Positions 18,904-20,826 of a stretch of DNA of 64,000 nt are shown piece by piece (the stretch's first letter is position 1; each line of letters opens with the position of its first letter). This DNA comes from Xanthomonas hydrangeae (GTDB lineage: Bacteria > Pseudomonadota > Gammaproteobacteria > Xanthomonadales > Xanthomonadaceae): positions 1,922,001-1,986,000 of the forward strand of contig LR990730.1 of assembly GCA_905142475.1 (NCBI GenBank), in the 5' to 3' direction. A program made the position numbers and the translations under genes. The notes under the pieces are model-generated. The model had not been told where the DNA came from and searched no databases. It saw only the letters and a list, made by a program, of their open reading frames with translations.

Positions 18904-19380
18904 GAGCGGCTAGTCAGGCCTCTGGAGTGCTGCATCGATGGCCGCGAATGTTGGTCACACTCGCCTTTGTTGACGAATGAAGTGCAGAGATCAAATACAG
19001 AGATTTTGAGTCGTTGCGCCGTTTTAGGTGCGATCAAAAGCTTGGTTGGTCGAGTGCGCGGTGTCCTCGCCGCTCGCGGGACACGCCGCAAGTACGTCCA
19101 TGTAGGCTCGGTGGCGGCATCCATGCCGCCACACGGTCCCGCAATCGGCGAGGACACCGCACCAGAGAGTTGGTCGGCTGCTTTCTTAAAAGCTTGTGCG
19201 TTGCTCGACCTGTATTGGGAAGATGACCGAACGCGCCGTTATCCGAACAACGGGCGTCATGCCCTGCTTACAACATGCACACCGACCATCTCCACTGGTC
19301 CTTGCCCGCCCACCGTCGCGGGACCTTACGCGGCATGGATGCCGCGTAAGAGCCTTATCTGTTCGCAATCTGGCAGTTTA

Positions 19381-19540
19381 GGTGTCGAGAGCCGGCGTGG
19401 GCCACCGTGAGAGCCTGGATCTCAGCGATCGCCGTGTAGCTTGGTACCCACGCCGGATTCTCCCTTGATTCGCCCGAACAGTTGCCCGAGGTGACACTCG
19501 AAACGATAAGACTGGGCAGGCGAGGGAGCTCTCGACATTT
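19381..19540 (+). ncRNA. Predicted bridge (seek) RNA of the IS110-family element
   Basis: Two stem-loops are enclosed by a 9-bp stem TGTCGAGAG (19383-19391)/CTCTCGACA (19529-19537). The first has a 10-bp stem 19392-19401/19447-19456 and a loop with guides CGTGAGAGCCT (19406-19416) and CCGTGTAG (19432-19439) around a GATC hairpin. The second (stems 19460-19465/19523-19528 and 19472-19475/19514-19517) has guides ACAGTTGC (19478-19485) and GATAAG (19505-19510) around a CGAG/CTCG hairpin. The first pair matches the insertion site halves, the second the element's right and left ends. Order and strand sense follow IS621. The exact RNA ends are inferred. Confidence 0.8.
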
Positions 19541-19561
19541 CTAGCCTAGCGGAGATTTCCC

Positions 19562-20485
19562 ATGAGCGGAATCGGGATCGATGTGTGCAAACACTCTCTT
19601 GACGTTGCGGTTTTTCGAGGCCAGACCCGTCAGTTCACCAACACCGCAGGCGGTCATCGGAAGCTTGTCGATTGGCTGAATACGCTGTCGGTGCGGCAGG
19701 TGGTGCTGGAGGCGACCGGGGGCTACGAGCTGGCAGCGCTGGATGCCTTGCATCACGCCGCATTGCCGGTGGCGCGCGTTAATGCGCAACGGGCACGCAA
19801 CTTGGCCAACGGTTTGGGACTGGCCAAGACCGACCGGCTGGACGCCGCCATGTTGGCCTGCATGGCCGAGAAGATGGAGCTCCATCAGTATGTTCCACTG
19901 GAACCATGGCAGCGCGATCTGGGCGAGCATGTGCGTGCCCGTCGGCAACTGGTGGATCTGTTGAAAACAGCAAGGCAGCAGCTGCTGCAGGTTGCGGAAA
20001 AAGCGCTACGCAAGCTGCTGCAGGGCAACGTGAACCAGCTTGTGCGCAGTGTGGCGCGGTTAGACAAACTGATCGCCGGGCAGCTGAAGACGCTGCTCAC
20101 CGTGCAACCGCACCTGGCTGTGTTGAAGACGCTCAAAGGGGTCGGTCCGGTGCTGCTGGCCGTGCTGGCGTGCCGGTTACCAGAGCTTGGGACGCTCAGC
20201 GGAAAGCAGATCTCCCGATTGGTTGGCGTTGCCCCGCTCTCGCGCGACAGCGGCGCGATGCGAGGTAAACGCGGGATTGGCGGAGGCCGAGCCGACATCC
20301 GACAGACGCTGTATATGGCGGCCATGTCCTCAGCTCGGCACGAGCCACGTCTGCGCGATTTTTACAGAGCGCTGCGGGCACGCGGCAAGGAGGGCAAGGT
20401 CGCCCTTGTGGCGGTGATGCGCAAGATGCTGGTCATCCTCAATGCGCGCGTGCGCGATGAAAGAGCCGCCATGCAGCCCGCCTGA
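19562..20485 (+). CDS. IS110-family transposase (DEDD recombinase)
   Basis: A 307-residue recombinase. The N-terminal RuvC-like domain has the DEDD set: D7 (GIGIDVCKHSLDV), E50 (VVLEATGGYE), D91 and D94 (KTDRLDAAML). A coiled-coil linker spans roughly residues 115-180. The C-terminal Transposase_20 domain starts at LKTLKGVGPVLLAV and carries the conserved serine in PLSRDSGAMRGKRGIG, probably S230, the nucleophile in IS621. The protein is intact, so the copy may be active. The ATG at 19562 follows GGAGATTTCCC. Family knowledge: it excises a circle and reinserts it guided by the bridge RNA. Confidence 0.95.
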   Translation: MSGIGIDVCKHSLDVAVFRGQTRQFTNTAGGHRKLVDWLNTLSVRQVVLEATGGYELAALDALHHAALPVARVNAQRARNLANGLGLAKTDRLDAAMLACMAEKMELHQYVPLEPWQRDLGEHVRARRQLVDLLKTARQQLLQVAEKALRKLLQGNVNQLVRSVARLDKLIAGQLKTLLTVQPHLAVLKTLKGVGPVLLAVLACRLPELGTLSGKQISRLVGVAPLSRDSGAMRGKRGIGGGRADIRQTLYMAAMSSARHEPRLRDFYRALRARGKEGKVALVAVMRKMLVILNARVRDERAAMQPA

Positions 20486-20520
20486 GCGCATTTGACGGCC
20501 ACGAGCAAACGCAAAAAAGC

Positions 20521-20541
20521 GTGCCGGCCAGCGGCCGGCAC
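20521..20541 (+). other. Hairpin in the IS110 right end
   Basis: GTGCCGGCC, AGC loop, GGCCGGCAC: a perfect 9-bp stem 36 bases after the transposase stop, preceded by an A-rich run (CGCAAAAAAGC). It may stop read-through from the transposase or insulate the element. No U tract follows. The rest of 20486-20826 is the IS end, the end of repeat copy 3 and about 135 bases with nothing recognisable. Confidence 0.5.
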
Positions 20542-20826
20542 CTACCGATGAACGCGCCTGAAGGAAACCGCTCAAAGGTCGCGGGTTGAGGCCCTGATCA
20601 ACACAGTTGCTACACGGACGTACTTGCGGCGTGTCCCGCGACGGTGGGCGGGAAAGGGCCCTGAAGCAAACCCGCAAATCATCCGCTCTACAACCAACCA
20701 ATCCACACCGTTCGCTCACCTCCCAAGGCGAGCGCAAGGCTGCGATTGTTGAAAGCATCCGGCTCTAACAGCACGCATCGATCCACACCCTGCCAGCATC
20801 TGCCGAAGCGACCACCGCGCCAACGC

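Follow-up and report, generated by a model that had tools for sequence, protein, structure and literature searches.

The Rfam family sX15 matches the strand opposite the predicted bridge RNA of an IS110-group element in Xanthomonas hydrangeae

A 64,000-nucleotide stretch of the Xanthomonas hydrangeae genome (GenBank assembly GCA_905142475.1, contig LR990730.1, positions 1,922,001 to 1,986,000; hereafter, the window, in whose numbering all positions are given) contains an apparently intact insertion sequence of the IS110 group, the 5' noncoding end of which encodes a bridge RNA. The opposite strand of that RNA carries a match to the catalogued small RNA (sRNA) family sX15, and a predicted antisense promoter lies between the bridge RNA and the transposase gene. 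The whole model that we draw from the sequence, in which a bridge-RNA IS110 element would have a sense promoter in the excised circle and an antisense sX15 promoter in the integrated copy that regulates the level of the complex, is probable. The broader proposal, for which the case stands about even, is that the sX15 family consists of the anti-bridge RNAs of the Xanthomonadaceae, with a promoter kept while the target loops are re-aimed at six repeat classes, and with the circle turning on the sense strand.

sX15 on the opposite strand

The match to sX15 (Rfam RF02234; 19379 to 19536 on the minus strand, 5' end at 19536) scored 170 bits with the covariance model, for which the gathering threshold is 55. 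It covered the full model (1 to 159), lay antisense to the bridge RNA, and was the sole above-threshold Rfam match in the window. RF02234 occurred in 21 of 35 genomes of the genus and in 62 of 297 genomes of the family (genus included), 42 of them above the cut-off, as well as in 2 of 369 genomes sampled from the class, both from the same family; none of the 14 control genomes had it. An IS110 transposase start adjoined the match on the opposite strand in 74 of the 108 loci examined and on the same strand in none, one place being counted twice among the 108 and many loci being copies of one another. The gap between the match and the transposase start was 25 nucleotides (nt) in 42 loci and ranged from -6 to 34 nt across the 74. 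No matched transposase start was found in the other 34 loci, 17 of which reach a contig end within 161 bases. That the remaining 17 are independent sX15 genes without a transposase was considered and rejected: as far as seen, with 12 of the 17 sequences read, they hold broken or partial transposases or remnants.

The strand and 5' end of sX15 were taken here from Rfam, whose output catalogues RF02234 as "Xanthomonadaceae sRNA" with no tie to IS110. The family reportedly stems from differential RNA sequencing (dRNA-seq) of X. campestris pv. vesicatoria by Schmidtke et al. in 2012. The match was absent from the earlier note on this DNA, in which a bridge RNA had been read from the letters alone. 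A literature search, with most subscription journals outside its reach, found no paper linking sX15 to bridge RNAs and none describing a conserved antisense promoter over re-aimed bridge RNAs. The accessible part of one dRNA-seq report describes 24 sRNAs in strain 85-10 and does not name sX15 (PMC3771888).

Predicted antisense and sense promoters

The predicted antisense -10 box, TAGGCT, occupies 19543 to 19548 on the minus strand, at -12 to -7 relative to the sX15 5' end. A minus-strand TANNNT motif lay between the bridge RNA and the transposase in all 53 scored loci, which are related sequences rather than independent draws, in the interval from -15 to -9 relative to the sX15 5' end; in 35 of them it stood at -12 exactly. 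The middle bases of the box varied (TAGGCT, TATGCT, TAGTCT, TACAGT, TAGAGT, TAGACT, TAAACT, and TAGCCT), and in equivalent windows within the transposase gene TANNNT occurred 80 times in 11,230. At the corresponding distance it was found in none of nine IS110 loci of other families, carried on plasmids and differing in layout; three of these nine had TANNNT elsewhere in the 101 bases inspected, and a tenth retrieved locus, L146 from Xanthomonas, was left out of the scoring. Because the nine loci lack it at that place, the motif seems to be a variant particular to this group.

On the sense strand, the predicted -10 box CAGTTT, preceded by TGG, lies at 19374 to 19379, with a transcription start predicted near 19386 that coincides with the start of a conserved 6-bp stem of the bridge RNA. 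Judged from the sequence, the TTG at the right end of the element (20607 to 20609) would serve as the -35 box, so that the promoter would be formed only in the excised circle; according to the accessible text of PMC11208160, the promoter of IS621 is likewise rebuilt at the circle junction. When the right-end TTG was set before the core and left end, as in the circle, and a distance of 15 to 19 nt was allowed, [TC]ANNNT stood 17 nt from the TTG in 52 of the 53 loci and 18 nt from it in the remaining one; the control rate of [TC]ANNNT in windows with five starts was 983 of 15,698. Where the sense box of clade A loci started with C, TGN preceded it in 13 of 13.

Several observations speak against these promoters. 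No conserved -35 box was evident for the antisense promoter, and a stricter scan of 19301 to 19700 for consensus promoters and terminators gave nothing on either strand. The promoter scoring left out, by name, 11 further loci with a transposase start, mostly decayed; the antisense TANNNT was present in two of them (L090 and L125) and absent from the other nine (eight from the genome designated G029, plus L144). In the sense-box test, a constant stood in for the right-end TTG; in 38 of the 53 loci the right end was read, having been located there by that same string. Genome G029 (L043, L058, and L096 to L105) contains many broken copies of several elements, and all eight of its omitted loci with a transposase start are without the antisense box.

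One explanation that we regard as unlikely is that sX15 is the plus-strand bridge RNA filed on the wrong strand, with no antisense transcript at all. The Rfam family ends nearly at both ends of the bridge RNA and no minus-strand terminator was found, as one would expect of the bridge RNA itself. Against this stand the -10-type box with variable middle bases, correctly spaced before the minus-strand 5' end in every scored locus; the plus-strand promoter of integrated copies, which is without its TTG half; and the IS110 family element ISPpu9, for which the accessible text reports a mapped antisense RNA across the transposase leader (PMC8450116). It is quite unlikely, too, that the minus-strand TANNNT belongs to the translation start region of the transposase or to the 3' end of the bridge RNA and is no promoter. 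The motif comes directly before the ribosome-binding site, its distance from the start codon hardly varies, and no -35 box was seen on the minus strand; yet conservation falls on positions 1, 2, and 6, as in a -10 box, the spacing fits an sX15 5' end that was defined independently, and none of the nine other-family loci, though differently laid out, has TANNNT at the corresponding distance.

The element and its target repeat

The element lies between two CT cores (19356 to 20609, plus strand), as placed by comparison with empty sites, with a 2-bp CT overlap. To its left stands one half of a palindromic target repeat (19301 to 19355), which ends with the CT core at 19354 to 19355, contains the left target (19345 to 19355), and recurs in the same or nearly the same form in empty sites of the same genome. 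To its right, the other half (20610 to 20680, likewise from the empty-site comparison) starts with the CT core at 20610 to 20611. The right end of the element itself reads ACAGTTG (20603 to 20609), its last three bases being the TTG discussed above. A search of the same genome (5.58 Mb in 5 contigs) with 19301 to 20680 as the query returned the window copy, nine diverged copies (69% identity, one partial), and many empty flanking repeats. In the empty repeats, query positions 1 to 55 (the left part, to 19355) are joined to 1310 onward (the right part, from 20610) with the CT shared, so that the element ends are fixed without recourse to the guides. The consensus empty site, as an exact pattern, occurred at 95 places in this genome and the reversed control pattern at none; the left junction of an occupied site occurred 10 times. 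When joined, the empty site folds into a single long hairpin, and the target is therefore a palindromic intergenic repeat. Its left half stays next to the element as a hairpin, into which transcription of sX15 would run.

X. hortorum strain jj2001 has, at five places, five copies that share 99.0% identity with the window element, each inside a copy of this target repeat. A second IS110 element of the same clade, 69% identical to that of the window, is present in the X. hydrangeae genome in nine copies (one partial; L002 to L010), in the same target repeat and with a matching target loop. At locus L035, the first left-end bases are tandemly duplicated at the left junction, and its left flank is for that reason not a normal target. 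Locus L056 (approximately 1430 to 1700 on the bridge-RNA strand) has a bridge RNA without a transposase, which runs at its 3' closing stem straight into the target repeat's right flank, possibly through an internal deletion at a CT.

Covariation supports the bridge RNA fold

The bridge RNA was placed at 19386 to 19536 on the plus strand by covariation among 52 sequences (the window and 51 relatives), with its 5' end predicted and its 3' end set by the closing stem rather than mapped. Covariance folding of related copies had been proposed in the earlier note as a check on its reading, and it bore the reading out: compensatory changes were found in 22 of the 36 pairs of the consensus fold. Paired cells amounted to 96.4%, versus 79.2% in column shuffles and 34.9 to 51.6% when the partners were slid, and the covariation score was 0.454, versus 0.147. 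The count of further pair types was less clear (49 versus 46.2, with the observed count reached by 57 of 500 shuffles). A short closing stem encloses two arms, one with the target loop and the other with the donor loop; the weakest helix was the outer stem of the donor arm, at 81.9% paired. The 9-bp closing stem read previously (19383 to 19391 with 19529 to 19537) does pair in the window, and its inner 6 bp (19386 to 19391 with 19529 to 19534) are the only part present in the consensus. The noncoding region of the window element has the conserved fold with two internal loops that characterizes IS110 bridge-RNA elements.

Fold energies were tried as an indicator of the functional strand and were uninformative. 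Single-sequence energies were lower for the antisense strand in 33 of the 52 sequences, whereas the consensus energy favored the sense strand (-49.3 versus -44.2 for the antisense). In the 31 pairs common to both consensus folds, G-U numbered 21 and A-C 15.

Guides follow their flanks between target classes

All four guides read in the earlier note held in a letter-by-letter check. The left target guide CGTGAGAGCCT (19406 to 19416) equals the left flank CGTAAGAGCCT (19345 to 19355) at 10 of 11 positions, and the right target guide (19432 to 19439) is the exact reverse complement of 20610 to 20617. The left donor guide (19478 to 19485) equals the right end of the element (20603 to 20610), and the right donor guide (19505 to 19510) is the reverse complement of the left end (19354 to 19359). 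With random flanks of local composition, equally good matches anywhere in the 158-nt RNA appeared in 0.27%, 0.27%, 0.46%, and 5.2% of 20,000 trials, and all four together in none. The donor loop was near-constant among the relatives (GAACAGTTG or close; GATAAG, CACAAG, or close), unlike the target loop, which varied between clades.

Sorting the loci by right target guide and right end gave six target classes: A (GAGCC-CT-ACACGG type), B (TAACGC-CT-GAATTA), C and F (both CCG-CT-CCTACA, with different right ends), D (GGAT-CT-ACT), and E (AACCC-CT-CTCCCG). Guides were compared with flanks in 64 distinct aligned loci from the 74 with a transposase start, from which seven (L090, L096, L099, L102, L105, L125, and L144) and then six more (L035, L043, L044, L058, L097, and L100) were omitted; after removal of unreadable flanks and duplicates, 34 left and 19 right pairs remained. 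Scoring used a fixed register; since clades C and F are offset by one base, either of two registers was allowed on the left. Over eight positions, left flanks matched the guides of their own clade at a mean of 5.97 positions and those of other clades at 3.41 (34 pairs); the corresponding means for right flanks were 7.05 and 3.60 (19 pairs). By exact matches, the true assignment of guides to flanks was the best of the 720 clade permutations on both sides, and with wobbles allowed it stood at 1/720 (left) and 2/720 (right); classes D and E contribute one or two pairs per side. A sliding best-match score, for which the true assignment was best of 720 on the left and the observed value was reached by 4 of 720 on the right, had low power, with the own left guide often not first, and was replaced by the fixed register.

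The correspondence was weaker within clades. Shuffles within clades reached the observed exact score in 589 (left) and 114 (right) of 20,000 cases and, with wobbles allowed, in 7,948 and 162. Two classes run counter to the general trend on the left: the flanks of class E matched their own guides at a mean of 4.50 versus 4.68 for B guides, and those of class F at 4.22 versus 4.60 for C guides; classes C and F have a common right flank. The earlier note had named unchanged target loops beside different flanks as evidence that would tell against guiding. Between target classes no such pattern was seen; within the window's own class, a few loci (L031, L042, and L055) lie in variant repeats, and their left guides match the left flank near the core only.

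Mismatches between guide and flank comprised 28 that wobble for a plus-strand RNA, 9 that wobble for a minus-strand RNA, and 66 others, which favors the plus strand as the guide. The left register was picked with wobbles counted, giving a slight bias toward sense wobbles; the right side, without a choice of register, had 9 sense wobbles and no antisense ones. The reading of a bridge RNA with the strand sense of IS621 is therefore upheld, as target guides change with their flanks and mismatches lean to plus-strand wobbles. It is very unlikely that the guide matches are a by-product of sequence copied from the usual target and the element's own ends, with the RNA serving otherwise (for example, only in folding the transposase leader), for despite poor left-flank matches at L031, L042, L055, and L143, the left guides repeat the top strand and the right guides are complementary to it, as they are in IS621, the target guides follow the flanks across clades, and RNA guidance of the protein family is shown in the accessible texts of PMC11208160 and PMC11208158. 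Target guides that match and covary with their flanks between classes, and donor guides that match the element's own ends, exactly in the window and in near-constant form among relatives, are both hallmarks of a bridge-RNA element.

The recombinase

The gene at 19562 to 20485 (plus strand) encodes an IS110 recombinase of 307 amino acids, which matched the Pfam families DEDD_Tnp_IS110 and Transposase_20 and the NCBIfam family NF033542, "IS110 family RNA-guided transposase" (189 bits; cut-off, 140). Its relatives among solved structures were IS621 (8wt6; E value, 7.5e-25) and ISCro4 (9t56; E value, 4.5e-22). The catalytic residues of IS621 are given as D11, E60, D102, D105, and S241 in the accessible text of PMC11208158, and D7, E50, D91, D94, and S230 of the window protein align with them by eye, at an inferred chain numbering offset of 2. 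The protein thus has the DEDD RuvC domain and the Tnp domain with a catalytic serine that characterize IS110 bridge-RNA elements. The ratio of nonsynonymous to synonymous substitution rates (dN/dS) was 0.12 to 0.45 against eight relatives, indicating purifying selection. Residues 152 to 277 also gave a weak NCBIfam match to a TIGR-Tas RNA-guided endonuclease (25 bits; cut-off, 100).

Proposed mechanism and significance

Excision of the element as a circle would join the TTG of the right end with the -10 box of the left end and so form a sense promoter, from which the bridge RNA would be transcribed and, where transcription reads on, the transposase message as well. The recombinase would then find the CT core of the abundant palindromic intergenic repeat through the target loop, while the donor loop would hold the element's own joined ends, and strand exchange would take place at the CT. 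In the integrated state the sense promoter would be split, and the internal minus-strand promoter between the bridge RNA and the transposase would make sX15. This RNA, complementary to the whole bridge RNA, would most likely pair with the bridge RNA and the transposase leader and so set the amount of active complex. Because only the antisense box is intact in integrated copies, where the sense promoter is split, and circles have both, we propose that sX15 may be the resident RNA and the bridge RNA the circle RNA. The analysis shows the sequence matches, the boundaries, the covariation, the motifs, and the Rfam match; that both RNAs are transcribed (for the plus strand, judged from promoter anatomy and from IS621), that circles form, that the recombinase is active, and in which direction the antisense RNA acts are inferred. 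By pairing, sX15 may block the bridge RNA, or it may help translation as Asr9 does.

If the broader proposal on the sX15 family is true, sX15 and the bridge RNA would act as an RNA switch that senses copy number and governs a programmable recombinase in trans. RNA-guided IS110 elements are already known, and the present element adds one more. The natural re-aiming across six target classes should be useful for learning guide rules, and the position of sX15 connects a catalogued sRNA family with the strand antisense to IS110 bridge RNAs. It thereby becomes testable what holds RNA-guided recombinases in check, and whether an antisense RNA serves as their natural off-switch or on-switch.

Comparison with known systems

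Among the closest known systems is IS621, an IS110-group element of Escherichia coli. According to the accessible texts (PMC11208160 and PMC11208158), it shares the left-end RNA with two loops, the sense of the guides (the left ones read like the top strand, the right ones are its complement), the CT core, the active site of DEDD plus serine, a promoter rebuilt at the circle junction (a predicted one in the window element), and the palindromic-repeat target; in the window element, too, the bridge RNA lies upstream of the recombinase gene. The window element differs in the conserved antisense box (a predicted promoter) and the sX15 match that overlie its RNA, and the terms "Antisense," "Rfam," and "Xanthomonas" are absent from the main text of PMC11208160. 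The seekRNA of IS1111 and IS110 elements is similar in that, in the accessible text, an RNA from a noncoding region picks the target site (PMC11187229); a term search of the main text of that paper gave no "Xanthomonas," "antisense," "Rfam," or "ISPpu9." Among more distant plasmid IS110 elements, L152 and L154 (from Serratia and Xenorhabdus) keep the donor-loop string AACAGTTG or ACAGTTG, with the transposase start approximately 50 to 70 bases after it and without the closing stem and spacer of the window element.

For the opposite strand, the precedent is ISPpu9 of Pseudomonas putida, with its RNAs Asr9 and Ssr9. According to the accessible text of PMC8450116, this IS110-type element sits within palindromic repeats, with a direct repeat of 2 bases, and its transposase has a long leader, which an antisense sRNA overlies. 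This work predates bridge RNAs, and the leader was treated there as a translation block. The sRNA, Asr9, is reported in the same text to be approximately 180 nt long, abundant, stable, and complementary to the transposase leader, and to raise both translation and transposition (PMC8450116). By analogy, sX15 may be an antisense regulator of the Asr9 type, which its position, its strand, and its -10 motif would fit.
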